Assembly (NCBI RefSeq): GCF_000165425.1
Contig: NW_001799032.1
Coordinates: 111,918 to 175,917 of the forward strand
DNA from: Paramecium tetraurelia
Lineage: Eukaryota > Ciliophora > Oligohymenophorea > Peniculida > Parameciidae
DNA length: 64,000 nucleotides
Direction of reading: 5' to 3'
Positions within the stretch are counted from its first letter, which is position 1. Every line of letters starts with the position of its first letter. The notes under the pieces were generated by a model, which saw only the letters and a list, made by a program, of their open reading frames with translations, searched no databases and had not been told where the DNA came from. Position numbers and translations under genes: made by a program. Positions 15,728 through 64,000 of this stretch are shown here, piece after piece.

Positions 15728-15889
15728 TAGACCTTTAATATTACATGGAATTAAATTATTCTGTTTTCGGTTAGGATAATTAAAATAATGAAATTATATA
15801 ATAAGAGAGTACGTTGATTCATTTGGGCAATTATTAGGATTGCTTAAATATGAAGTTATTTACTAATGAATTTATTCGTTTTTATAATT

Positions 15890-16918
15890 ATGAAATATTT
15901 CATTTTGACATTATTTGTTTTGAATGCATTTAGCTTCTCTTTGAACGATGATTGGGACGGTATGGAAGAAGCAGTCAAAGTTCAATAAGACGCGGTCTTG
16001 GTATAGAGAATAATTAAATAGGATCTAGTAGACTAGTTAGACTTATATTCAGAAACTCCGATCACAACTTAGATAGAGAATCAAGTTTAGTAATTGATAA
16101 ATCCTCCCCTTGAGGCTGATCAGGCAGAATAAGAGAACGAACAAAGCGAGGAAGTACACTCTCTCGAATACTGGTTGGAGAGATTGGGAGATGAATATTA
16201 AGACGAAACTATATTGTTATAGCAACCATAATCAATTACGGAATAAATCACAACAGTTGTTGGCAATTTGGTTCTAAAAGTAGGCGACGCTAATCAATTA
16301 AAGCTAATTGCTGAATAAGCTGAAATTGCAGATCCCTTGATTATAGATGGAATTGAATTGGAATATTAGGATAAGAATGATAAGGAAAATGTTTAGATGC
16401 AGTAACTCTTAAACTCAGCTTTGGAAATGCAGAAATCATTGAGTTAAGAAGATGAATAACAATAAAATGATCTAAATTCTAATTCCAAGAAGAAGCATAA
16501 GAAGAAAAGACCAATCATTGATATTGATTTGAATGATTTAACTATGCCAGAAGACAGTGATTAAAATGAAATAGAAAATACAGTAGTGTAAGAAAATGAC
16601 ACTTCTGAAAACACTATTGAAGTCTAAATTGATTCCAATAATGAAGAAGCATCAACTGAGGCTGTTTCTAAGTTCACTCCAAATGAGGAAACAATTAGTG
16701 AAGTTCAGGATAATAGTAGGATGTATAATTTCTTGAATGATGCTCATGAAGATGCTGGAAATGAAGATAATTAAGTTAAATAATAGCCTTAACAATCTTA
16801 TAATTTTAAAGAATATTCATTTAATAAATTTGAAGGAGATTAGCGATCGTTTTATAATGAAAAAGATGATTCTACATTGAAAGTAGTAGAAAGAGAATAA
16901 CCAAAAGAAATTATAAAC

Positions 16919-16958
<40 letters not shown>

Positions 16959-17729
16959 GATTATAATACTAAGAAGAAAACAAATCATATAAATTTATCA
17001 ATACAGAATAATCAGATTAAAATAAGGATTAATAATCTACATTAAATAATTATGATTAACCACAAGAAACATCAATTCTTAAAAAATATTTATTATACAC
17101 AGATCAACCAGAAGTGATATCCACAGGAACTACTGAAAAAGAGATTGAAGATGATAAAAAATTAGTTGCTGCCTTTAAATCTATGGATAGAGATGAGCAT
17201 TGGGAAAAAACTAACAAGAAGTAAAAAATAAATACAGATGTTAGAAATGAACTATTGAGATGTAATCATTATAATAATATATTAGTTACCAATGTTGATG
17301 AGGAACCACAAAAGAAAGAACCTGAATTCAAAGAGGTTACAGAAAGCAAAGTGGAAAACCCCCATAAATTCATTTCATTTAAAGCTGATCCTGAGTATGA
17401 GTATGAGTAGGCTGAAAATGCAAAGAAGAAAGAATTGGCTAAATCTAAATATGATGAATTGCCAGAAACCAAACTCTAAACCAAAGAAGACATGAAGAGA
17501 GAGAAATAATAAAAAATACGTATCAATTTAAATTCAATACTTAGAGGAAATGCAGAAAATTATTGAAGAATAATTGAAGAACAAGACTTTAAAAAAGAAG
17601 TCTGAAACTGACAAATCTTTACAATATGAAAGTGAATATTTGCAATGGGAAAGAGCTACATAGGCTAAATCTTACCCTGCTGAAATCAATTTTGTCATGA
17701 CGTAAAATAATTTAAGAAAAAGATAATGA
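15890..17729 (+). CDS. Secreted acidic Asn/Gln-rich protein
   Basis: The start MKYFILTLFVLNAFSFS is a clear signal peptide. The mature part is about 590 residues, rich in Glu, Asp, Asn and Gln, with few cysteines and no recognisable globular domain. A run of about 13 asparagines is encoded by an AAT repeat at 16917-16958. A Lys-rich cluster (KKKHKKKRP) interrupts the acidic region. One 25-nt intron near 17521 restores the frame at the end. Content suggests a secreted or luminal low-complexity protein, for example a calcium-buffering or granule matrix component; that is inference. Confidence 0.75.
16917..16958 (+). repeat. AAT trinucleotide repeat coding for poly-Asn
   Basis: A near-perfect run of AAT units lies in frame within the acidic secreted protein gene and encodes about 13 asparagines. 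It is a likely site of length variation. Confidence 0.9.
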
Positions 17730-19120: not shown

Positions 19121-21835
19121 TCAAATCAATAAGTTCAATTCTGTGCCATCTTTTACTCCTAATTCTTTTAGAGTCTTGTTAACATCTAAAACTTTACCAT
19201 TCCATGCTAAATTTATGGTGTTGCCTTTGATACTATGTTATCTAACAAAGTCCCAGATAATATCACCTACTTTTTAATTAGGCTTTAATTATCTTTAATG
19301 TATTTGATTGTTTATTTTATTGATTTTTATGATAACCTTTATAGTTAGTGGAGAAACAATTAGAAATTCAAATGACACAGGAATAGGATCGGAAGGTTTC
19401 AAAATAGTATTCCCTTACCTAATAACAATATCACTCTATTATTGAAATTATTATATGATGTACTATCTTAGATCTTCCACAGTTTTATTCTTCTCGAATT
19501 CTATTTCATGTCTCTTGTCTTTAATGGAGATATTTAAAAGACATTTATTTTCTTAATTGTTTGGCTATTCTGGATTATTGATCTTAGTTTTCTGATTCAA
19601 TGTCAACTTTCCATTTTATGCAATCTCCTTTAACTTTTATTCATCTTTGGCTGCACTCTGATTACTTAATAATAGTTCTATTTCGTCAGCACTTCTAAGA
19701 TTTAATGCTTGTCTTACATCTTTGATTGTCTATTCCTCAAGCAATTAAACTTCTTATTACTAATTCTTTTCAATTACAATTACTTAAATCCACTAAACCT
19801 ACTTTTTCTAAACTTCGTACTCAATTGTGTTTAAATCATAAAACTCTATTTCTTAAAAAGTCTTCTCTTAATTGATTTGTTTGTTCTAAAAATAGAAATT
19901 ACAGTTGCAGTTTTCCAATTTTAAATTCTAAATCAGAATTGAAATCTTGGATTTGAAATTTATTTCAAAGTAGGACTCATCTTTTGTTATTCTATCATAT
20001 GTTCTTACATTAATATAATCCTTAAGTAAAATTTGGAATTCACAAAAATTCAATGTATTTAATTGATCTTCTTCATTAAAAGAAGCATTGGGTTGATTTC
20101 TTATTTAGAATTCATTTGGTTGATTTTCAGGATAGGAATAATGAGATAAGAATATTTGTTTCAAATCCGATATTTTTTTTGTATGGTTCATTTTAAACTC
20201 AACTAATCTGTCTTGGTTTATGATATAAATCTTATATGTTTTAGTTTGGGTATCATTTTCGCCATTTTAACTAGGCACAATTTTATAACACTTCTGACAT
20301 GCTGCCCATAATTTTTTACACAATAATTGCCCTTATACAGTTTCATTTCCGTAATATAGTTCAAAATCTTATGATTCATCAATTTCAAAATATTCTCTCA
20401 GTTTGTCGAACAAATCTATGACACATTTGTCTCTTTTTTGATAGATGTCATACAGATCATCCTTGTATTACACTTACAATAGAATTTATGTTGGTTGATA
20501 AAATATCAAATCATTTTATATTTATAGAGCAGCAAAGGTTTATTCGATATCATCAATAGTTTAATTTTTACAACTTACCCAAACATCATTGGTTTCTCTT
20601 CCGATCAAATCGTAAATGTATTTGGATAGTAATTCATTAGATAGTGCTTAAATTTCAACTGGGTTTTATTACTCAAGATGTTAGAACTTAAGTAAAAGCT
20701 ATACGCCCTCTATTGGTTTATACTCAATAACAGTGTCATTTTGTGTGATTTGCAATTGACGGAAAGTCTCTTTTTTGTCTAATTATTTGCCTTAATAAAA
20801 GTACTCCATCTATTTATTACAGAAAACTTATTTATCTAATACTGACAATTATTCATCTAAGGAGATGTTACTTTTCTTCCTGAGTCCTGGGTTTTCTTTA
20901 TGCTGTAAGCAAATTTAAATCTTCTCCAACTTATTAGTGACAATCAACTGGATGACATCATTATTCGCAATTTAGCATTGATTGATAGTGTTGTTATTAG
21001 ACAATTCAATGTCTTCGAAGATCAATTTCACATTGACTTAAGAATAGTTATGAGGGAAGAAGGAGGTTTTGGTTTTATTCATAAGTGTTTCTATTTTTTC
21101 ATCTTTGAGTATTGTCATTTATCGAGTGACTTGGCCATAGACAATGGTAATAGTAACTTATTTATTATTTTGAATTTCTACAATGCGTAATTTTAATTCT
21201 GTGTTGGGGCTCACTTGATAAAAATAGAAGGCATCATCTTTATTCATTTAATCTATTTGAATCTATTCACTATCTACATTTATCATTTGGCTAATCATTG
21301 TGCATAAAGTCGACACTGAATTGGTAACATCAATTTCGAGTTCATATTATTTTGAATCATAAATGAATTAATGTTTTGAGAATATCTAATATGTTATATT
21401 TTCCCAAGGTGATACTTCGATTAAGTTCCTCCCCTAGTTAAGGATTTGGTCGTTCATGGAGAAGCGAACTTCATAATCTTATCTAAAGTTTAATTTCTTC
21501 AATAGAATAGCACCTAATTCATCCATGGTATTGATAATATCGCATTTAAGATTTTGGCTGTCCAATTTCTCATTGTGAACAGTGACTACAATTTTCTCGA
21601 TGAATTCTGCTTCAATTTCTGAACAAGGCAAGGTGATTCTCTATTGATCCAGAGTTTTAGTGTTGTCCATTCTTTCTCCTTTAAAAAAAAAAATTGGATT
21701 GGGTGCATTTGTGGGAAATTTCAAATCGGCAATTAATTTATTCATTAACTCAATTGCTGTTTATTCTGGCTTGTATTCTACCTAGAATTTTAATTTCGTA
21801 TTTCTTAGTTTAATATCGATTTATCTTACATTCAT
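19121..21835 (-). CDS. Tandem ubiquitin-like (beta-grasp) repeat protein A
   Basis: An uninterrupted 904-residue frame without introns. By eye it divides into about 12 units of 65 to 85 residues, each with a beta hairpin, a helix and the ubiquitin-type ending F-x-G-x-x-L...T...L-x-I-x-x-x-D. Clear unit ends are FYQGKQLDKKETFRQLQITQ (about residue 385), LIFEDIELSNNNTINQCQI (about 305) and LAWNGKVLDVNKTLKELGV at the C-terminus. The helix of the last unit reads KVGDIIWDFVRQHSI. The protein ends DGTELNLLI, so there is no terminal Gly-Gly, and no unit has an internal one. It is therefore unlikely to be a processed polyubiquitin. No intein-like (Hint/BIL) domain is seen. It probably acts as a scaffold; function is unknown. 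Confidence 0.8.
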
Positions 21836-21841
21836 TTAATT

Positions 21842-21860
21842 TATATATATATATATATAT
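21842..21860. repeat. TA dinucleotide run in a divergent promoter
   Basis: A TA repeat lies in the 58-bp gap between the start of tandem-Ubl gene A (minus) and the start of the coiled-coil gene (plus). It is likely part of a shared, very short promoter region. Confidence 0.7.
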
Positions 21861-21893
21861 CTAGTATTTTTATTTATTTATTAACTGTCAAAA

Positions 21894-22857
21894 ATGCTAG
21901 TTTCACAATATCGATAGTTGCCAGCCCCTTCCAAGGAACTCCCTTCCAATTTGAGTTAGGCTCATTTCGATTAGAAGATGAGATTCCAATAGTAACATAT
22001 ACAAGCGAGGGTGATTGAGGAAAGACCCAATTTCCAAGAGATGTAAGGAGGATAACCTCCTATGAAGCCTTGGTTAGGAGAAGATGTTTATATGGTAGCA
22101 TTTCTGTTATCAGTGGAAAATGATAGATTGAGAGAGGAGAATGGAAGGATTGGAGAATATATAAATTAGAATGAATTAAGATTCAAGGGAGTGGATTTAA
22201 TTGAAGGAGAATTGATACAATTGAGAAATAAAATAGGAGATTATGAGAAAAAGATTGCTTAGCTACAATATGAGAGTGAATAATGGAGAGTGAAGTGTGT
22301 TAATAGAGAGAAAGAAAGTGAAGATCAACGCTATTAGAAGGAATTACAGAGAAGGATATCTATAGATAGGGAAATAAGGGAGTTGACAGCCAGATTTATA
22401 TCAGATAGGAATCAATTGGAAAAGGAGAATAGATAATTGAGAACTGAATTGGATAGTCTGAAACTATCTAAAAGCAGTGTAGATGACATAATGAGATAAG
22501 CAGATATGGTTTAGAAAGAAAATCACAGATTGAAATAAGAATTAGACAATCTTAGAAAGGGTTTCGATGAATTAGAGTATGTCCTTAAAACAGCTGCAGA
22601 TTTGGAGACTGAGAACACTCATCTAAAACAATAGATAGAGAATTTCTAAGTCTAATTCTAGAACCAACAGTAACAGCAAATGCAACCAATTCAAAGAGTT
22701 GTCGTCAATTCAACAAATTTATGTAAGACTAAGATTTAATGACTTAGAAAATTCGCATAACTTAGAATCAGAAATTAAGAGATTAAGAGATGAGAATGAT
22801 AGACTCAAGGTAATTGTAAATTTAGGTCAAGCTACTAGACCTTAACCATTTATGTGA
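21894..22857 (+). CDS. Coiled-coil protein between tandem-Ubl genes A and B
   Basis: The start MLVSQYRQLPAPSKEL leads, after a short N-terminal region with MKPWLGEDVYMVAFLLSVEN, into heptad-rich helix with many Glu, Arg, Lys, Leu and Gln residues. It is transcribed divergently from gene A and convergently with gene B, with 58-bp and 34-bp gaps. A frame change near 22735 is needed to reach the best C-terminus (LESEIKRLRDENDRLK, ending RPQPFM); no good intron accounts for it. The conserved opening (LGEDVYMVAFLL) recurs in ciliate coiled-coil proteins as far as I can recall, but I cannot name the family. A structural role is inferred. Confidence 0.65.
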
Positions 22858-22891
22858 TACATTATATATTAACTACTTATTAACATTTATA

Positions 22892-25733
22892 TCAAATAAT
22901 AATCTCAAATTTCGCATTTTAAGTAATTTAGAGGTCTGAGAAACACTGATCTAAATTTAATGTTGCACCGTCATAGAACATTTCTCCATCATTAAACTTA
23001 TATTTTAATTTAAATTCCTATAAGAATGTCTTAAATTTTTGATTCATCTTCACATATTCTGTGTACTCCTTTTCATCCTAATCTATCAAAATGATTTTGA
23101 TAATATTATGATCCAATTTGTATATTAGTTCAATCTCTTTGTTATTATTCTGTAGAGATTTCAAAATGAAATCATTGGGTAATGCTTATGTCTAATCTCT
23201 TAATTGATAAAGATAATAATTCTCCCTATTCAATTTCTGTTGTTCCTTGAAAAGCTAAACAGTCATTTTCTAATCAATAGTTAAAGTTCTAATCTTATCA
23301 TCGACATGCAATATCAATGTACTATCTAACTCCTCAATGAATAATTCTTAAGAATCTGGCACTTCTAATTCTGCCAAGGTGCTGTCTTAATTGATTTCCC
23401 TCTCTAAATAATATACTCTAATCTTGTTTTGATGATTCTGGCTAAGAATCTAACTGATTTTTGTGTCCATTCTGCAAATCTTTTAATACTACAATTCCTT
23501 TGTTTTATAGCTCATAAATTTAATCGTCACTAATAAAATATAGTGCAAGTGGTCGTTATTGTAAATATTTTCATCTCGGAATGAGTTTTAAATGTTTATC
23601 TCGCGATTTCCCTCCTAAATTACACATTTCCCTTTGATATGGTTCTTAATTGCATAACCAATTATGTCTTCTGGGTAGAAGTCAATTTCCACCACGTTAT
23701 GAGTGTTATTTAAGTCAAACAATTAAACTTTACTAGTAGATTCTATAGTAATAACTGTGTTTGGGTCTAAATTTAGATCGATTAACTTAATAGTTTGATC
23801 CATTAGGTTATTGGCAATATAACATCTTGATTTTCTTTTTGCTATGTCTCCCAGCATTCCTCCCAATGTCTTAAACTTATTAAATTTACCCTCATACACA
23901 GTTTATAAGTCTTAGATTTTATATTTCACATTTATATTCTTCTTTGAAATCCTGAGCACCTTACCAATGTATTCTGACAATTCATCATCATCATTTATGT
24001 CATCATCTTTATTTTCATTTTTGTTGTCGACCTAAATACAAACCTCGTCTTAGAATAAATCTGTGTATAAAGACTTCATTTGTGACACTCTGTCTGTCTC
24101 ATAGAATCTGGATTCTGATTGTTCTATATTGTTATCCAACAATAATTCGATCTTAAAGTGAAACACCTTACTTACTGTAAACATTACATTATTTTTAAAA
24201 TTCTTGATATATTCATTCTCATGTAAATCTTACCCATTTAGTAGTATTTTGCATTCATCTGTAATCTTAAATTGGTTTATCACTTTCTCTTTTAGATCCT
24301 TCACTGTGTCCAAAAAATGTATACACATTTCTTTTATTTATCTCTGATTCCTAGTCCAAATCATCAATTATACTATCATGTCTGACAAACAATATTGAAT
24401 GATATCCCCATCCTAGATTCCTTCTGACTTATATGTGCCATTCAAATCTATCAATTAACCATTCTTATACGCTTTTATTCTCAAATTATCATAATTAACA
24501 TTCGTCATTATTTCCTCATTGATGATGTCCTCCGATTTCACCTATTTTGTAAATGAGTTGCCTTCATCATCTTGGAAGGTGACATTAAAGGTAATTGAAA
24601 ATTCTACACCATTTCATACTAAATCAAATACTCATTTTCTTTAAATTTGATACTATTAAAAATTAGTCTCTCAGTAATTTCGACTATATTACCATTAACA
24701 TAGAATTAGAATACCTTTCCTTTAAAAGGTTGTAATTCAAAAATAGTTGAAAAATAATCTAAATTGGATACCTGTTTTGAAAAATGAACTTACTCTTATA
24801 CTTTACTTACAAATTTTATGATCATAGTCTTTTCTAGTATTTTATTTGTTATCTTAAATTCAGCATTATCTGCTAAATCTAAGCTTCCAATTTTTGTGTT
24901 GTTTTCTAACATTTTGTTAAGATAATAAACTTATAAAATTTGATTTTAATGTATTTGTTCAACTTACTTGTAGTATTTAATGAACTCCTCTATAGTCATA
25001 TTAACCGAAACATTAAATCTATATGTTTTGCTCTAATATGAAATTTAAATCTTTTGCAGGCTCTTTATTTTCATTTTCAATTCAGCATTCTAATAGATTT
25101 TGTAGAAAAAATATGTCTTTCGATCTTCCAATTATTGACCTCTGAAATATAATTCTATTTCCTCTTCAATACCAAGCTTTTGTCTAATCTTCTACTTTAT
25201 TTTATCCAAATATGAAAAAGCATCAATCTAAAACAATTATAGTTTGTCTTAATATCTAATATAAAAAATCGCTTAAACTAGATAAAATAGTTCTTATTAA
25301 TAAAAGAATATTTGGCAGAGGAATAAATTTCTGTCTAAAACTTGATTTTTCTTAAGAATTTTAATTGGGTACTCTTCAATTTTTATTGTATTCGCAATTT
25401 TTTTTTCAATTTCTATTAATTACTAACATGCATCCACTTTATCCAATATAAGCTTATATTTCTCTCATCCTTATCTATGTGTTATATTGTGAAGCTTTCT
25501 ATTTCTTCTGAAAAATTGATATATATCACATTATTTTTGAGAGAATTAAGGTCATAATGTATATCTCTGACATTATTTTCATCAGCAATATACAATTTAG
25601 CTTTCGCAGGAAATCCTTTTTGTTAATTTAAGAATTGAACAACGTCGCTGATTTTTGCTGAGGAAGATTTGGGTTCATATTCCAATTTGAATGTGTTGTT
25701 ATTCACAATGATCTCGTATTTTTTCATTGACAT
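22892..25733 (-). CDS. Tandem ubiquitin-like (beta-grasp) repeat protein B
   Basis: A second protein of about 937 residues with the same build as gene A. Unit endings include LYFRGQQLEDRKTYFFYKI, YYLNKMLENNTKIGSLDLAD, AYKNGQLIDLNGTYKSEGI, ILLNGQDLHENEYIKNF and, at the C-terminus, MFYDGATLNLDQCFSDLQI. The first unit opens MSMKKYEIIVNNNTFKLEYE. One 28-nt intron near 24602-24630 (GTATTTGA...GTGTAG) restores the frame. A further frame irregularity near 25460 is unexplained. An acidic insert (NDDDEL) lies near the middle. Around 11 to 12 units are present. The end is KFEIII with no Gly-Gly, so conjugation is not expected. Confidence 0.75.
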
Positions 25734-25740
25734 GTGACAT

Positions 25741-26330
25741 TTATATATTTATATATAATAATACAGTTTAAATTTCTAATTCATAAATCTATTCCACAAG
25801 CATAGTGCATTTAAAATACTATTATATTCTGATTTACAAGTAATTTTTAAGCAATTTATACTCCTTCATCCTTTCATTCATGTGCTATTATAAATATAAC
25901 AAGATTAGGTTAAAATGCTTATTGTTGTAATAATTTTATATTCGATTAAAATAAAATATTAAATTTTTGAGATGTATTTGTATTTTGTTTAAGTATTCTA
26001 GAAATTCATTCTTAAACTTAAATTGAATACAAATGAATCTTAAAATGTATACAGTTCCATTTTCAAATTTATGACTTCACTTCTAGCTCTAGATACCGCT
26101 GAAACATATGAAACATATTGAATGAATGAAATTTTCTCAATCTGAGGAAATGGTATGTTGGTTCAATTTTAATTCTTAGTTTTTCATTCAGATATGCTTA
26201 CAAATTAAGATTACTTCTCTGATTTATAATTTGCTCATCAAATATAGATACTGTGTTTGAATCCTTATTTTAGTTTAATTTAGAAACCCTCCGAAACTTT
26301 CAAACAACAATTATATAATAAATTTACAAA
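25741..26330 (-). CDS. Possible gene of unknown function upstream of tandem-Ubl gene B
   Basis: The minus strand carries frames that look coding: DSNTVSIFDEQIINQRSNL, then RFHSFNMFHMFQRYLELE-like sequence and, in a second frame, NGTVYILRFICIQFKFKN followed by a helical stretch with HMNERMKEYKLLKNYL. They do not join without a one-base change, and the 3' end would run into the start of gene B. Coding character (balanced hydrophobic and charged residues, Q codons TAA/TAG) is the only support. It could be a decayed gene or a chance frame. Confidence 0.3.
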
Positions 26331-26493
26331 CCAAAGAGTTTATTAATCTATAATTAGCTAACTTATATCTTATAAATATATTTTCATACATGTTTACTTC
26401 ATTAACTACCATATATATCGCTTAACCAAATAATACCATACAGTTCGATCTTTATAAAATAATAATAAATTTATTATATGCTTTAAAATTAAT

Positions 26494-26796
26494 ATGTCTG
26501 AAAGCGAAATTTCATTTGATTTCAATGATGATGAACCTGTCGAGGAAGTCAAGTCATCTCACATGTAAACTAAACCGGAGAGATAAATGATGTCATTTTC
26601 TAAAAGTGATAAAAAGGACAAAAAAGAAAAGTTAAAGCAATTACAAATCACAATGCAAGGATAGAATTCAAGCAAATAGTAAATGACAAAGGATTTGTTA
26701 TTCCTATTAAAGTTTGAATAACATATGTTGAGTTCCATTAATAGTTTGCATTAGAGAATTATGAGATCTTTAGAAACGGAGGCTCCTGGAAATTGA
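26494..26796 (+). CDS. Small charged protein of 100 residues
   Basis: An intact frame without introns: acidic start MSESEISFDFNDDEPVEEV, a central Lys-rich stretch (SDKKDKKEKLKQL) and a helical end (LLFLLKFEQHMLSSINSLHQ, then TEAPGN). It stands alone between tandem-Ubl gene B and a kinase gene. The charge pattern would suit a small nuclear or scaffold-associated factor. No family recognised. Confidence 0.6.
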
Positions 26797-26972
26797 ACTC
26801 ATTTATTAATATTATTATATATATAGTTTGATGTATAATTTAAACTTCAAATTAACATGATTATAAACTAATTACTAAAAATAATTAAATTTCTAAACTC
26901 TAAAATGTTAAATAGAAATTTAAATTCAAATTTATAAATACAATTATAATGTTATATATCGAGTAATTGAAA

Positions 26973-28386
26973 TCATTTTCTTTTTAAAGGAGGCAACTCT
27001 AACTTTTGCCTTACAATTTATCTAGATTTAGCTGAATTGTCATTCAAAATCTCGTCAATTGTTTTGGGTCTCACAGAGGCCTTTTGTTAAAAGCACTTTT
27101 TGAATGAAGCTATTGTATACTTCTAATCTTCTAGTGTATTCAAATTGTCAAAAGAAGTCTTTGGCTTTGATTTTGAATTTTACTTTGATTTCTAATCTTT
27201 CGGACTTTTGGATCTCATATTTTTTATTTTTTGAATATTTGATACCATTTTTTATTTTTATGATTTAGGATTGGGTAAAGATTAATACTGCTACAAAAGT
27301 TTTTTCTTATCAGTCAATTTTAATAATATCTCATCATTTGGATATGGTTGTTAAATTGGACAATTTTTCATTAGATATTGTAAAAAGAGCAGTAACTTAA
27401 ATGACTATTGTAATGGTTAAATTAATTACATTTCGAATTTACTGATCCTTAATAAACTATGATATTTGCTCATTATAAGTTAATGGAATTTTATCTGAGA
27501 AATTTCGAGTAATCCAAGGATGAATCAATGCCTAACCGACACTATACCTTTCAATGGGTTCAATTGTAGTCAATTTTTAGATAAGATCCTTTGCTAATGG
27601 GCTCATGTGATCTGATAATTACCATATTGGATTCATGATTTTCTTGATCACTTAATCTCTAGTGTCGTTTTTATTATAAAATGGATGCTAACCAGAATTC
27701 AATAACATGTACATAATAACTCCGCAACTCCATGAGTCAACTTGTTTACTATACTATCTATTATTTAGAATTGAGTACAAATTTCTCTTTAAATTACTCA
27801 GGAGCCATATAAATGACAGTTCCACATTTTTTATTAAGCAAACTATAGAACATGCCTTCTGATGCAAACTTGAAACTTAAGCCAAAATCAGCAATCTTGA
27901 CTGTCCTTATGTCAGTTGTGGCAAACATGATGTTTTCTGGTTTTAAGTCTCTATGAATGATTCTTTTCTCATGTAAATAGTGAACTGCTAATAGAATTCC
28001 TTTCATAATAATCGCAAAGTCCTCATCAGTATATTCTTAATTCATACGCTGTGCCAATGTTCCTCCTTTCATGAGTTCCATAATTAAAAAAAATTAATTC
28101 TTATTTTCTGTTATCTTCATAAGAAATCTTAAGTACTCTTTTGCATTGGACGATATGAGGATGATTTAACTACTAATAAATATCTGATTCAATTTATGCA
28201 TCTTTGAAAAGTGTTTTAGAAACAACCTTAATAATTACAAGATTATTTAACCTTGACAGCACACTCTGTATTATCTGTTAAGTCTGTTGCCTTATACACT
28301 TTTCCAAAGCTTCCCTCTCCGATCTTTGCTATTTCTTTTATTTAATACATTTCTTGTAGAAAATCTACATCCTCACCTTGGAGCAT
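26973..28386 (-). CDS. CAMK-type Ser/Thr protein kinase without EF-hands
   Basis: All kinase motifs are present: IGEGSFGKVYKA, ECAVKVV, FLIMELMKGGTL, catalytic loop IIHRDLKPENIMFA, IADFGLSF, the GTVIYMAPE end of the activation segment, and VDSWSCGVIMYMLL. Introns of 25, 22, 25 and 25 nt join the parts; a 22-nt one precedes the hinge segment. The C-terminal tail is basic and Gln/Ser-rich (RSKSPKDQKSK) instead of the calcium-binding EF-hands of a CDPK. It lies between tandem-Ubl genes B and C on the same strand, 90 bp upstream of nothing but the end of gene C. Whether it phosphorylates those scaffolds is speculation. Confidence 0.88.
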
Positions 28387-28476
28387 TAATTTTATAATTA
28401 ACAATATTATTATAATAGTGTCATAATTCTAATAATATTAATTTTAGATCATAAAAGGCAGCGTTTAAATTCAAAT

Positions 28477-30852
28477 TCAATTTTATAAATCTTGGAAAGT
28501 CTTGACTTCGGATGCCTCATGGTAAGAAAGCTATTCCTCAAATATAATGTTCTCATTAGGATTATAGTTTATGCTATTAATCGTAGAAGTCAAGTCCAAA
28601 ACTTAGTTCTTATATAAAAGTCTATTAATCTTGACACCTAATTTGTTAATGATGCTTTTAAGGCTCTCATCCAATTCTGCTATCATCTTTTGTACTGTTC
28701 CACTACGAGCATTTTAAAAATTCATTAATAATTAAGAGTGATACCTTATTATGGAATTATTTTCAATAGGCAAATCTTTTATGTTTTTATGCATTTATAT
28801 GGTATAATTATAAAAAGTAAAGTTAGTCCCAATTATCTAATTTTTTTTTAAAGCAAACTCAAAAGTATTTTCAAGTTCTGCTTAAATTATTTATTTTAAA
28901 CCATTCTAATTCACAAGTTACAAGGTTAAGGTAGTTATAAATTAAACCCTCAAGTCCGAACGAGTTTGATTAATTATATTGTTAATTTAATAGATAGTCT
29001 CATTTTCATCGACCTTTTTCTAACCTATAAAGAGATCGAGTACTTAATTTCTTGGTGATTGATATCTGTATTTGATTATCTGGCAAAGAGCTTTTGCTGT
29101 TTAGTTCTATTTCATATTAATATGGGCGCAACAACTAACATGATTGACATATACACACAATTCTATTATATCTTCTTGAGATTACATGTCATTTTGGACA
29201 TCAAATTCAAATTTAAAATTATTGTTTCCCTTTAAGAATTCTATTAATGACAAATTTTTAACTTAAGGTTGTATATTCTGTAGTTATAATTGTTGATTAA
29301 GATTATTCGATGCTTTGAATTGTTGTTCTATTGAAGAAATGGGTAGGTTTTAATCTACAATTACTTTTAAAGCTTGACCTTAAACCTAGGCTTGAAATAT
29401 TACAAAATCAGTGAAATAATTTAAGATGGAATTTGAAATAATATTTAATTTATCAAATCTCCATTTAAGATCAAGTAATTAATTGCCAAAATATACCTTA
29501 TAATATTTTGTATCCTTTAAAGTTTCCGTCTGAACAATACCTTAAAAGCCATCCATAATAGTGCAAGTAGAGGAAATTTTAATTTATTTAGACGATTTTG
29601 TGTATTTATTTTGAAAAGTGATTGTGATTTAAGTCATGTCCTCACTTGGCAGATGTAAATCTTAACGTATATCTTATAATTAATCTTAGTTATAATATAA
29701 ATCTTATTGTTAATCCTGTTTTATTATCTAATAATTAATAATGCATTCTGATTACAAATCTAGTTATTTTAAATTGAATTTTTTATCTTTTATTTATTCT
29801 TCTAGAAAATATTAAATGGTTTCAGTGTATTTGTCATGATTTATTAGTATATCCAGATCAGCTAAGGTAGAATTCACAGCCACTCTCTCGTATTGCTTCA
29901 TAGAGTATTGATTTTGCAATAAGATATTAATCTTATTATCAGAAGGTTCTTTGATGAGAGTTAATTGACTATATATAGGAATACATTCTTGATTTAGAGT
30001 ATTACTTATATCAAGAAGGTTTTTCTTAAGTTTGTATTCTAATGTTAATGGAATAGTATTTTCTATTTTAAACTGTTGTCTGACCTTGCGTATTAAATCA
30101 AATACTTCCATACTCCCTGGTATAGTAATCAATTTATTGTCTTGATTTTAAAATGCTACATTATAAATGAATTCCTATCGAAACTCAACATCCCATGGTT
30201 AGTCTAGTGGTATGTTTAAGTTTATGTATAATAAATCAGGGTTTATATTTAGTTATCCAAGCTTAAAAGTAATGAGTTCATCGTCAATGTTTTACTAAAT
30301 TTTGAATTAATTAATGTATTTAGCAATTGGTTAAAAGACATCAATTGTAATTTCCATAATCTATTATTTGTACTATATTTGCTATTGCTTTTTGATTTGA
30401 ATAAAAACTGTAAGATTTTAAAATACTCCTTACTTCCCCCAACATTCTGACCCAAATTAGGTCCCATCCTCAGAGTTAGTTATCTATATCTCACATTATT
30501 TGATCTTGATTAAGTTTGATATATGGACTCTAAACTTGTTGGCTGATTCATATACATCTGTAGCAAAATTGATGGTCCCTAAAAATTCATGAACACATTA
30601 AATTGTTATTTTTTTTGATAAAATTACATCTATTTACGAGTATAAATTTATCTCAAGATCCTGAATTGTTTTATTAATATCAACTTAAATATTATCAATC
30701 TTCAATATTGCTTGTAAACTATCTCTAACCTATTTAGCAATATTCAATCTGTTAAATAATAATTGCAGAATATTTAACCCTGTTTAATATGGATAAATTT
30801 CAATAGATTCCATTATGCTGAGTTGTTAAACCACTACATTTACTTTAATCAT
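28477..30852 (-). CDS. Tandem ubiquitin-like (beta-grasp) repeat protein C
   Basis: A third intron-less frame, 791 residues, beginning MIKVNVVVQQLSIMESIEIY. It shows about ten units with the same rhythm: strand, hairpin, helix and a terminal LDLxxxI-type strand. Good examples are GSMEVFDLIRKVRQQFKIE followed by LTLEYKLKKNLLDIS, and the last units KALCQIIKYRYQSPRNQVLD and RLLYKNQVLDLTSTINSINY. The units are more divergent than in gene A and the F-x-G-x-x-L motif is often degraded. The end (EVKTFQDLQN) lacks Gly-Gly. The frame is very rich in TAA/TAG Gln codons around residues 370-420. Beta-grasp assignment is weaker here than for A and B. Confidence 0.68.
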
Positions 30853-31756
30853 CTAGAGTTAAGAAATGTAAAAACAATTTCTATTAATTTTTATTAATAA
30901 TTATACTTATTTTTTTAACAGATTTTGTTAAAAGAATTCTTTACTCATATTTTATAGAATTCATAGCCATAAGTTCTTAAGAAGATTCAATTTCAGAATT
31001 TGAAGACAATAGATAACAATTTTTAAAATTATTTTAATCACAATTACACAAAATAATATAATATTTCTTCTTATATCTATGAATTGTTTAAGTGATTTAA
31101 AGATTTTGTCTAATTTAATGACATAATCAGTTTGATTTGATACAGAAAGGTTAAATTTTAAATATCAATTGGATCTCAATCATATTCCATTTTATAGTAA
31201 GATTTGTTGATATTTCAATTTAGTTTATTTCGAACTCAAATAATCCATAATTGTATTTTATTATTTGGATAATTGATAAATTTTGTAAATTAATTCATCA
31301 TATTTGTTTTCATAGTTTTCGCACATTCTCAACCTGAATAATGAATAAAAAATTAGTTAAGATTATTAATTAATAATTAACTTCTTATTATTTCTATATG
31401 ATTATTCAATTCTCGATTACTTATTTATGTGACACTTAAATTTGTATATAGATTAGAATAGTTTATAGAAATTATATGATTTATCAATAAAATTAAATAC
31501 ATTATAGTATAAATGAAAATAATGGGAATATAATATTTTATTTTAATACAATTTGTAAGTACAAAATATTTGATTAATATAAATGAATTCTGATTGATTA
31601 TGTTGCACAATTTAAATAAATTTAAAATATATATATTAAAACATTTATTACTCTTTAGGATGAAAAAACTGAATAATTTATAATAAAAGTAAAATATATT
31701 ATATAACTCGATGTAAACAAAAAATATAGTCACTATACTGATTCACTTCAGCGTGT
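30853..31756. other. Intergenic, about 0.9 kb, no gene seen
   Basis: Extremely AT-rich. A 102-codon minus-strand frame at 31425-31733 is mostly Ile, Leu, Tyr, Asn and Phe, as expected of AT-rich noise. Confidence 0.55.
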
Positions 31757-32400: not shown

Positions 32401-33536
32401 TTGATTTTTTTATGATTATTAATGATTTTTCATTTTAATTTTAATTGCAATTTATAGAGTTGAATATCAGTTTTAATGACGAAAGGTATTTATAATTGGA
32501 AAAATCAATTAACTTAAATTAATTCAATTTACGTGATTATAAGATCTAAATTCTTAAGAATTCCGGAACATTTTAATTGTTTTTTTTCATTTTCAAAATC
32601 TTTTACTTTTTCCACTTTTTCCAGGTTCAGAAAAAGACAAATAGACAATTTTCATCCTTTTTTGGTTGATTTATGTAAATCTATGAATCTCAACTGCTTT
32701 TCCGAAAATTGTAAAAACACCTTCCTATCCCTTTAAATTCAAAGTATAATCAAAAATTGATATCAATTCGATAATTTAATTAATAAAATCCAAATAACTC
32801 ATCGCAGAATATGCAAATTTCTATTAATAACCAAATTCAAAAAAACTGTATATTTATGATATCACAAAAGTAAGTTTATTTAGAAATTTATTTTACTTTT
32901 GGTTCAAATTGCATGGCATTCGTTTTTTTTATAATTTACTGAGAGTTCATAAATGAGAAAACTACAATAGATCCTTTAATCAAAAATCTCTTCGAAACTC
33001 AGTGTTTGTTTCACATATGTTGCTTCTATACCAGCTGCCTTAAATTTTAGGAATAAGTTATTTAAACCTATTTTAATAACTAAATAGATTGCAAAAACAC
33101 GTATTATATCTGATTATAATATATAAAATTGACAAATTTAAATTAAAACAAGATTCAGATTTTTCACTTCAGTAGGGTATCAAATTTTAAAGTGATAGCT
33201 TAATAGCCATTTTTTTAGCAAAACTATGTTCATGATATTACAAATTCTTTATTATCAATCATTATTAACATCATATTTGTTGAGACTTTAATTATAAATT
33301 AAATTGAAACTTTTTCGAAATTCTTAAATATAGATATCTGTTTCCTTGAAGTATTAAGCCTTTAAATAGGAGCAATATCTTAATTAAAATGCTAAGATCT
33401 TGATATAAGGATCATTAAATGAATATAAGGAAATCAATTATTTTCTTATATTGGCTTTAAAAGTTGTAAGAAATTAGAATTAATATAAATCTTGATATAT
33501 TTAATAAATGAATATAGAAGTTGAATTCAAAACTTT
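32401..33536. other. Intergenic, over 1.1 kb, no gene seen
   Basis: AT-rich sequence with long T and A runs. A 67-codon plus-strand frame at 32533-32736 is rich in Phe and Ser from T-rich DNA and is not convincing. It separates the Myb-like gene from the 3' end of the VWA gene. Confidence 0.5.
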
Positions 33537-33813
33537 CCTTATTAATATTAATATAGATCTGCCATATCTTCATCTTCGTCCCCCTCTTCTAAATTTGAAT
33601 CCTCTGATATTTCATTTTTCTAGAAATTTACTGCGCAAAAATTGATATTTTTTATTTTAGGACTCTCAGAAGATTTCATAAGTGGCTGTGAATTCATTTA
33701 AGGTTGCTATTAAGGTGGTTGTAAATCCATTTAAGGTTGCTATTAAGATGGTTATTATTTGTTATCATCTCCTTTAAATAATAATGCTGCCTTTTCAAAA
33801 AAACTTGGTTAAA

Positions 33814-33864
<51 letters not shown>

Positions 33865-35640
33865 GTTATTATTATTAATATTATTATTATTAATATTATT
33901 ATTCTGTTAGGACGGGCTGAGATGATAATTTTTCCTTTCTAACTTCTCTAATTTCTTATCTACACATAGTTGTTTATAACTTTGTATTATGCGTTTGAAA
34001 ACTCCTATTTTTCTCTTTGTTAGCAGAATTGCTATTAATGTTAACATTTGTTTGAATGTAACCATCCCATTACTAATTATATGACTATGCCTGTTAATAA
34101 TTTCCTTGTTTAGCTATCTATGCAGTCTTCTATGTCATTCTTTTATGAATGACATCTACTTCAGCCTCTTCTTCTGCCTCCATCGCATTTTCTGTTGTTG
34201 AGACCTATTTAGTAACTACTCTCATAAGTTTATCACCATTTAGATTAGTGTAATTAACCTTAAGTTAAAATGGAACAGTCTTTAAATCCTTGATATCAAT
34301 TTATTCTTTTTGTAACTCCTAATCATTTTTTAATTAATATTCAAATGTTTGAGTAGTAGCAATAGTAGCATTACCTATGTCTCTTTTAAGTTTATGATTC
34401 AGATTAGGATCATCTTCTCCTCTGAACTTTAAAGCTCGATGCAAACTCACAAATAGCTGAACTTAAGTTCCTACTAATTCATCTTTTAAAATATTGGCAA
34501 AATCTTTTTCAATATCTTCGGGCTTGACTCTAGTAATGGTTCCATTAGTTTTTTCAGACAAGGCTCCCAGAATGTCCACTTTGCATCCTTCCCCTTTTAT
34601 CGTTACAACTGATATCACTACTCCACATTATGTAGCAAAGTCACCCAAATTTTCATAAAATTGCTTATTTGCCTCATTTTCCAAAGATCCCAATCCCAAA
34701 ATTGGCTAATCCATCTGTGCAGATAATAATCATGGATCCAGGTTTACCTATTTTCGCTAATTGCAAAGCTGAAATCAAAGCAGGTCCTAAGGCAGTCTAT
34801 CCTTTTTCTTAGAGTTGCTCAAATTTCTTCAAGAGACTATCGGCTTGAGCTTTAACTGGAGATTTCATGAGTTATTTTGCAGTTCCATCTAAGAGAGCCT
34901 CTATTTCATCTTATTTAAAGAGTCTATCTCCAGCAATTGTAATTGGGACTTCAGAACCATCCCCATATACAACAACTTCATTATTGAATGTGACTAATCC
35001 AACTATTTTATTGGGGTTCTTCTTCTTTAATTCTCCTATTTGTTATTCAATAGCTGCCATAACACATTATTTCCTGGAAACATGAGTAACATGTTTGGTA
35101 TTAAATTATGGCCATATCTAATGTTCGTCTCCAGGTTCAATGAATTATTTAAGCATTTCATACTCTTCAGCAGATATTCCATGTTTAAAATTGACCTTTC
35201 CCTTTATTTCAACAGTGCTGGACATTGAACCACTGGTATCAATACAAAATACTATAGAGTTATCAGCATCTTCTATTTGCATTTATTATTCCTAAGATGA
35301 TTAAATCAGATAAACAGTATCTTCACTTTTAGGTATTTCTTCCTTTTCAATTTAGATGTAATTCTTATGATTACAAAACTCACAAATCCAAAGATGCTTT
35401 CCAAATTATTGATTTTAAACATCATCTTCAATTTTTGAGTATATATTTAGAACAGTTTCACATTGTTAGCACAAAATAGGATCTCCTTGATGTATTTTAA
35501 CAACGTTTTCTTTCAAGCAATCAAACTTAACTTGGAAGATATTGGTATCGACATCATCTAAAATTTAGGGTAAATAAGTTACATTAATTGTCAAAGGTCC
35601 TTCTTTTCAGATAGGCCTTTTTGGAACACATTGCCATCAT
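33537..35640 (-). CDS. VWA-domain protein with zinc-ribbon start and poly-Gln tail
   Basis: A short first exon (MMAMCSKKAYLKR) joins through a 25-nt intron to the main frame. Two Cys pairs (ILCQQCETVLN and WICEFCNHKN) form a zinc ribbon. The VWA domain follows with its MIDAS motif IVFCIDTSGSMSS, then IVGLVTFNNEVVVYGDG and MIIICTDGLANFGIG. This order resembles Sec23/24-related and copine-like ciliate VWA proteins. One extra base near 34688 breaks the frame just after GLANFGIG. The tail has a long poly-Gln tract encoded by TAA units, a tandem PQQQPQM motif pair and an acidic end. Possible role in membrane traffic; not established. Confidence 0.75.
33812..33904 (-). repeat. TAA trinucleotide repeat coding for poly-Gln
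   Basis: On the minus strand this is (TAA)n with a few TAT and CAA units. In the VWA gene frame it encodes a Gln tract of about 28 residues, broken by single tyrosines. With the standard code it would be a string of stops. Confidence 0.88.
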
Positions 35641-63195: not shown

Positions 63196-64000
63196 ATAGA
63201 AAAACCCAGATGACAAGTTAAGGAAATAAAATTTACTAATAGCTATTGAAAAAATTTTAAGCATCATTGAATAGCATCGAATGGGCTTTAATTTCATCAG
63301 ATATTTTTAGGAAGTTACTTTATTTTTGGAAAATATTTATTATCAAAACAATTTTTACTTTATTATTTTAGTCTTTCTCTAGTCTTTTCTTTTCTTTATT
63401 AATTTGTTGAAGTTCAGTAAATTTCAAAATGTATATCAAAATTTGGAGTATTTTATTTTGTTTTCATTAACTAAACATTTTTATTCGAATCATTAACTTA
63501 TCTCTCATAATTATTTTAAAATATTTGTGGTAGTGTGTTACTTCGTGGGTCATGATGATTCGCTTTAGGGGCACCAAACCCGATGCATCTGCATGAGGTG
63601 TCACTATCGCAGTTATTGTAAGGAAAATAACCATCCTTCAGCAAGGATGCTACTTTGTAAATTTTGCACCACATTTAAAATGTCTAATAACATTTGTTGC
63701 ACTGAGAGATAATTTGAGATTTAAAGTCAAAGGTAGAAAAACATATCTCGATCAAGGAGGAAAAGAAAGTGATTAACTTACATGGTCATTTGTCTTATAT
63801 GTTGATAATAATTGTGATCATAATATTTCTTTTTATTATAATAACTTCCTCTGCTTTTAAAATAAAATTAATATTGAAATTTTATTTTTTATATTTTAAG
63901 AATCCATAATTTTTCATTTAAATCATTAGAGAAATTAAATATGGGAACTTTAAAATAACTGATTAATTGAATTTTGGGGCCTATTAAATTCCTTTCCACC
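63196..64000. other. AT-rich end of window with one GC-rich patch
   Basis: No coding region is evident. A patch at about 63530-63680 is much less AT-rich than anything around it and includes a 6-bp hairpin (ATCCTT, loop CAGC, AAGGAT); it may be a structured RNA and is treated as a finding. Confidence 0.45.

Follow-up and report, generated by a model that had tools for sequence, protein, structure and literature searches.

Three clustered Paramecium tetraurelia genes that very probably encode strings of diverged ubiquitin-like domains

We identified a cluster of three minus-strand genes in a 64,000-nt stretch of Paramecium tetraurelia DNA (the window; positions 111918-175917 of 175917 in contig NW_001799032.1, C79 in the genome labels used here), each of which very probably encodes a chain of 10–13 strongly diverged ubiquitin-fold domains with hardly any linker and no other recognised domain. 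Long frames in the window required that both TAA and TAG be read as Gln (code 6, the ciliate code), with TGA as the sole stop. Consecutive ubiquitin-like (Ubl) units of approximately 75 residues were delimited by hand: 12 in gene 1, 13 in gene 2 and 10 in gene 3, with mean lengths of 75, 72 and 77 residues, respectively (standard deviation 3.9–4.9). An earlier interpretation made from the letters of this DNA (the sequence-only reading) had recognised these units and estimated roughly 10 to 12 per gene; it had also called the genes giant, and proteins of 791–904 aa are better described as large. Linkers between units were almost absent, the exception being approximately 22 residues between units 5 and 6 of gene 3. 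Identity of the units to the first unit was only 4–23%. In line with that reading, neither the unit ends nor the C-termini of genes 1–3 (which end in NLLI, EIII and DLQN) carried Gly-Gly, and a single Gly-Gly, internal only, occurred inside unit 9 of gene 2, where the proposal had allowed none.

Evidence for ubiquitin-like units

In Pfam searches, the gene 1 protein matched Rad60-SLD (E-value 5.1e-17, five stretches, the best at residues 844-904 within the unit 12 region) and ubiquitin (8.3e-15, four stretches). Gene 2 was split into three pieces, of which the second matched the same families (4.2e-9 and 8.8e-7, respectively) and the third matched Rad60-SLD at 6.7e-5, just short of the curated cut-off; the first was scanned at the unit level only. 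When the 35 units were scanned singly at E≤0.05, 10 matched Rad60-SLD and 6 matched ubiquitin, along with scattered lone matches to other families. No Hint family, UBA or USP catalytic domain was found in the window proteins P0001-P0004 at E≤1, and Pfam gave no ADP-ribosyltransferase, cytoskeletal or synthetase domain match in genes 1–3. The view that the chains contain no other domain, and no self-splicing domain between units, was thus upheld by these searches. A sequence search of PDB with P0001 gave no significant match (best E-value 0.084), no PHROGs family was found for P0001-P0004 at 0.01, and IMG/VR yielded one pattern match to P0001 and no relative.

Profile comparisons extended these results. 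With a ubiquitin/Ubl profile built from the same genome as reference, 17 of the 35 single units scored better than all 20 of their shuffles, including 9/12 in gene 1 and 8/13 in gene 2. When aligned collinear copies were added to the units (hhalign), 11 of the 12 gene 1 units and 7 of the 10 gene 3 units were above all 12 column shuffles; the corresponding value for gene 2 (13/13) was unreliable, with gap-stretched blocks and at least two matches outside the unit, and the count was used for genes 1 and 3 alone. Hidden Markov models (HMMs) built from the units of one gene were also run on the units of the others, together with 1050 shuffled units. Scores above the top 1% of shuffles were reached with the gene 1 HMM by 6/13 units of gene 2 and 5/10 of gene 3, with the gene 2 HMM by 4/12 units of gene 1 and 1/10 of gene 3, and with the gene 3 HMM by 3/12 units of gene 1 and 3/13 of gene 2. 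Because many individual unit probabilities were low, the profile results hold for groups of units and not for each unit. Judged from these comparisons, the majority of units in genes 1 and 2 have a profile of the ubiquitin type.

AlphaFold models were generated for gene 1 and for a five-unit piece of gene 3 from shallow alignments (4 and 3 rows, respectively). A ubiquitin fold with a listed structural match was predicted for units 1 and 4 of gene 1 and unit 4 of gene 3, and the better-modelled units are predicted to have a beta-grasp fold. The best Foldseek match was linear tetra-ubiquitin; structures of ISG15 and OASL were among the listed matches and a USP7 structure ranked 37. For unit 12 of gene 1, the block means of the predicted local distance difference test (pLDDT) were only 34–67. 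Positions taken to be core were hydrophobic in 86% of cases, slightly above shuffled units (mean 79%, maximum 82%). No domain-domain geometry was predictable (predicted template modelling score, pTM, 0.22–0.29). The terms rod and system used in the sequence-only reading go beyond the evidence. Its beta-grasp assignment stands for genes 1 and 2: the ubiquitin-like fold is clear in gene 1 and in part of gene 2. It is less direct for gene 3, which probably has it, the sequence case for this gene depending on the alignment of its family and on the collinearity with gene 1. We infer that the remaining units, above all most of those of gene 3, share the ubiquitin fold.

Table 1. Window positions of the three genes, selected units and the gene 2 frame breaks.
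Feature	Position	Strand	Remarks
Gene 1	19121..21835	minus	904 aa; 12 tandem ubiquitin-like units; single open frame under code 6
Gene 1 unit 1 (residues 1-79)	21599..21835	minus	AlphaFold model with ubiquitin fold
Gene 1 unit 4 (residues 225-302)	20930..21163	minus	Best-modelled unit
Gene 1 unit 12 (residues 832-904, C-terminal)	19124..19342	minus	Ends in NLLI, without Gly-Gly
Gene 2 piece 1 (unit 1, first part of unit 2)	25470..25733	minus	First frame; also an in-frame ATG at 25784
Gene 2 piece 2 (remainder of unit 2 through unit 5)	24541..25464	minus	Second frame; final residues overrun the frame break
Gene 2 piece 3 (units 6-13)	22892..24613	minus	Third frame; includes stop (22895 without stop)
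Gene 2 first frame break (approximate)	25440..25490	minus	No 15-49 nt intron fits
Gene 2 second frame break (approximate)	24590..24630	minus	No 15-49 nt intron fits
Gene 3	28477..30852	minus	791 aa; 10 units
Gene 3 unit 4 (residues 229-306)	29935..30168	minus	AlphaFold ubiquitin fold; nothing significant in Pfam

The genes had been given 904, about 937 and 791 codons. Genes 1 and 3 are indeed open frames, that of gene 3 remaining open upstream to an ATG at 30948 (823 aa from there); gene 2, extending from approximately 25733 (or 25784) to 22892, is distributed over three frames. We scanned positions 25613-25403 and 24753-24503 for GT-AG stretches of 15–74 nt that join the frames with no stop nearby. 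No frame-joining stretch of 15–49 nt was present in either region, which rules out a short intron as the cause of the breaks. Six candidates had lengths of 50, 56, 62 or 68 nt; they are formally possible as introns, and several would delete unit sequence. Introns of 50–68 nt are unusually long for Paramecium. A copy of gene 2 on contig C52 is a single unbroken frame of 956 codons, and gene 2 of the window is therefore either broken or mis-sequenced in the assembly.

Elsewhere in the window, long poly-Gln and poly-Asn runs were observed within open frames at 33527-34714 and 15866-17566. The end of the window is the end of the contig, and its final 300 bases (63700-64000) contain no obvious telomere repeat.

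Copies, duplication history and rate of change

Copies were searched for in a 69-Mb, 231-contig assembly of the same genome (contigs labelled C29, C52, C184, etc.). Among the matches listed, the window (approximately 0.8–46.9 kb) had collinear blocks on C184 (the closest), C29 and C52, i.e., one near and two more diverged blocks, as expected from successive whole-genome duplications. A search for syntenic paralogs, as suggested earlier, was successful within this genome: gene 3 had copies on C184 (39% identity, E-value 1.7e-150) and C29 (26%, 1.1e-29), each flanked by the same neighbours, and gene 2 had a copy on C52 between the counterparts of window 26.1–26.8 kb and 8.7–10.1 kb, matching the order in the window. 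For gene 1, tblastn against its own genome found only the gene itself.

The genes are also related to each other. The gene 3 family was collinear with gene 1 over units 1–5 (profile E-value 4.3e-5; reversed control 0.23). The gene 2 family profile, which consisted of the C52 copy and the window pieces, was collinear with gene 1 as well, 154-380 aligning with 161-394 in addition to the last unit (2.2e-5 and 7.1e-4; reversed control 0.68), and phmmer matched gene 1 to the C52 copy at 4.3e-10. These collinear matches suggest that whole genes were probably duplicated once the array existed. The idea of duplication followed by strong divergence is supported as the origin of the family, and it can be refined: the duplication is probably old because the older duplicated blocks contain collinear copies of genes 2 and 3. 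On the simplest interpretation, these two genes were adjacent before the older duplication and losses occurred later.

Two further observations concern these blocks. Compared with locus L020 on C184, window 28372-28480 lacks approximately 350 bp in front of a kinase gene, whose open frame starts approximately 10 bp past gene 3 and in the same frame. A gene of approximately 700 codons (L039:4314-6415 on C184, also present on C29 and C52), which had no Pfam match at E≤0.01, lies near the gene 2 place in the three duplicated blocks and is not at that place in the window.

Gene 3 appears to be the fastest changing of the rows compared. Among 21 window queries, 17 matched on C184, and gene 3 had the lowest identity (40%); identities in the remaining 16 rows, which include three pieces of one kinase gene, were 59–95%. 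By the Nei-Gojobori method, the nonsynonymous (dN) and synonymous (dS) distances between gene 3 and its C184 copy were 0.49 and 1.26, respectively (dN/dS 0.39), and seven other rows had dN of 0.02–0.20 and dN/dS of 0.03–0.34, with the highest ratio, in a Myb-like neighbour, close to that of gene 3; all ratios are rough because the slices were hand-cut and dS values near or above 1 are close to saturation. A ninth row (g_37253-part) was out of frame with pN above pS and was excluded, leaving eight usable rows. Estimated in this way, gene 3 evolves rapidly and yet appears to be under net constraint.

Counter-evidence and possible roles

Several results weigh against the picture of a family of Ubl strings. 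For gene 3, Pfam gave nothing significant (best E-value 0.86) and none of the 10 units passed the single-unit shuffle test; its C184 and C29 copies, and the C52 copy of gene 2, matched no Pfam family at E≤0.01. Mutual profile similarity links gene 1 with both other families, and the gene 3 and gene 2 families did not match each other significantly (E-value 0.026). Structure prediction, proposed as a check on each unit, gave pLDDT values mostly under 50 for 8/12 units of gene 1 and for 3/5 units in the piece of gene 3 (mean pLDDT of the models 40.9 and 46.7, respectively), and the gene 3 model is not independent of homology because rows from genes 1 and 2 were part of its alignment. The ubiquitin binding patch (L8/I44/V70) was hydrophobic in 50 of 96 cells, compared with 23% of other sites taken to be exposed; shuffled units on the same reference gave a mean of 52% (43–59%). 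Conservation of the patch would have pointed to receptor binding, and the shuffled control took this support away. Gene 2 carries two frame breaks in this assembly, the C184 copy of gene 3 has an eleventh, C-terminal unit that window gene 3 lacks, and the matches listed for the C184 block included neither gene 1 nor gene 2; together these suggest that the family may be dispensable. On C184, only ~300–400 bp are present at the expected place of gene 1 and a different gene occupies that of gene 2, and a very diverged remnant may have been overlooked.

With these points in mind, we tentatively propose, at somewhat below even confidence, that the proteins serve as non-conjugated docking scaffolds. 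They would form a small tandem-Ubl family whose chains, having nothing to cleave at the unit ends, would stay whole after translation and would not be conjugated. Each chain would then be a fixed string of docking surfaces in which every unit has drifted toward its own partner or neighbour, and the protein would hold its partners together, comparable to a linear poly-ubiquitin that cannot be cleaved and whose beads have become individual. A stronger form of this proposal, which we consider doubtful, is that ciliates have a class of poly-Ubl strings, uncleavable and non-conjugated, whose beads have each become a position-specific adaptor, with their order kept since before the older genome duplication and with gene 3 outpacing its neighbours; the ubiquitin fold would then serve purely as a construction element of a multivalent hub outside modifier chemistry.

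Alternatively, the arrays may be mechanical or architectural rods of the ciliate cortex or cytoskeleton, stiff or extensible in a titin- or spacer-like manner, with Ubl units stacked head to tail, in which only fold and length matter and surfaces drift. The regular unit length, the near absence of linkers, a binding patch not above chance and fast protein change with dN/dS below 1 are all consistent with such a rod, which is nevertheless unlikely: no inter-unit geometry was predictable, no cytoskeletal domain was matched and the number of units varies (12, 13 and 10, with one extra in the gene 3 copy on C184), which would be odd for a ruler. The genes could also be old duplicates of a dispensable, lineage-specific family that is being lost, the fold being held by weak selection. 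This would fit the frame breaks of gene 2, the lack of matches to genes 1 and 2 in the C184 block and of any further copy of gene 1, the missing C-terminal unit of gene 3 and its 40% identity to the C184 copy, the lowest in the block. Decay is made quite improbable, however, by the dN/dS of 0.39 for gene 3, by open frames of 904, 791, 876, 956 and 675 codons in a code with TGA as the only stop, and by the retention of gene 3 copies in three blocks.

A third alternative explains the fast change and gene turnover by conflict, the tandem Ubls acting as a decoy or sensor for ubiquitin-directed enzymes of pathogens or symbionts. Although dN was higher for gene 3 than for the seven other usable rows, genes were turned over between the duplicated blocks and the architecture resembles the tandem Ubls of ISG15 and OASL found by Foldseek, we regard this as very unlikely, since whole-gene dN/dS was below 1 and nearly equalled by the Myb-like neighbour (0.34), and nothing ties the genes to defence. 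Finally, a polyprotein precursor of free modifiers, cut and conjugated like polyubiquitin, would account for head-to-tail units in a genome that contains polyubiquitin, and is close to excluded by the C-termini and unit ends without Gly-Gly, by the low identity of the units to the first and by the lack of a Hint/intein match in a search that detects Hint in the BUBL gene of this genome. The polyprotein, BUBL and shuttle-factor readings were rejected for the lack of Gly-Gly ends, Hint and UBA, respectively.

Comparison with known tandem ubiquitin-like proteins

Ubiquitin-fold domains are usually modifiers or one to five accessory domains. In polyubiquitin, the head-to-tail units hardly differ from one another and have Gly-Gly ends; genes 1–3 share the head-to-tail ubiquitin-fold arrangement and differ in the divergence of their units and in the ends without Gly-Gly. 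Polyubiquitin arrays were detected in the same genome on C183, C71, C60 and C99. ISG15, FAT10 and OASL have two Ubls; ISG15 and FAT10 possess a conjugation tail and are conjugated, and OASL carries a synthetase domain. They resemble genes 1–3 in being diverged tandem Ubls, whereas the latter have 10–13 units, no tail and no other matched domain. USP7 and USP47 contain several diverged, non-conjugated Ubls in tandem together with a protease domain, for which P0001-P0004 gave no match at E≤1; unlike shuttle proteins of the Rad23/Dsk2 type, which combine an N-terminal Ubl with a UBA domain, P0001-P0004 also gave no UBA match at this threshold.

Two other tandem-Ubl genes were found in this genome. 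A BUBL-type gene on C67 (L027:1421-4234) encodes, in one frame, ubiquitin, a Hint/intein-like domain, a further Ubl and an ADP-ribosyltransferase according to Pfam, and it served as a positive control (Hint 1.9e-9, ADP-ribosyltransferase 1.2e-9). Like genes 1–3 it is a ciliate tandem-Ubl gene; unlike them, BUBL genes have Hint domains between units, and L027 has the transferase, neither of which was matched in the cluster. As earlier proposed, the cluster is therefore distinct from both polyubiquitin and BUBL. In addition, a minus-strand gene on C181 (L026:3006-4403) has five Ubls (Pfam ubiquitin 1.5e-42, five stretches). It is similar to genes 1–3 in its tandem Ubls and in the absence of Gly-Gly in the units read, and differs in having just five units and a longer N-terminal part. 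A frame directly upstream adjoins this gene, and we take it to be glycosyltransferase-like. Since polyubiquitin, BUBL and five-Ubl genes were all detected, the tools used here see such kinds when they are present.

The BUBL polyubiquitin-intein genes of ciliates are known from Dassa 2004 and Chiarini 2019 and 2021, as cited in PMC8616854, from which it also appears that the title of Chiarini 2019 terms one BUBL-type Ubl non-conjugatable. Term matches in PMC1949818 gave one mention of Tetrahymena, in a species list, and none of tandem Ubls in ciliates. Among the open-access matches listed (titles and abstract starts), there was no ciliate protein of the build described here, and one may already be described in print or in a database.

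Chains made of 10–13 diverged, tail-less Ubls alone would demonstrate how the ubiquitin fold can serve as a repeated structural module, and ciliate cell biology would gain a protein family amenable to silencing and tagging. Even if their role should prove trivial, these genes would illustrate how a domain array drifts beyond family models, Pfam missing gene 3, while at least one unit still models as the same fold. Compared with the systems above, their anatomy is a variant of the tandem-Ubl kind already known, which is real and unusual in degree.

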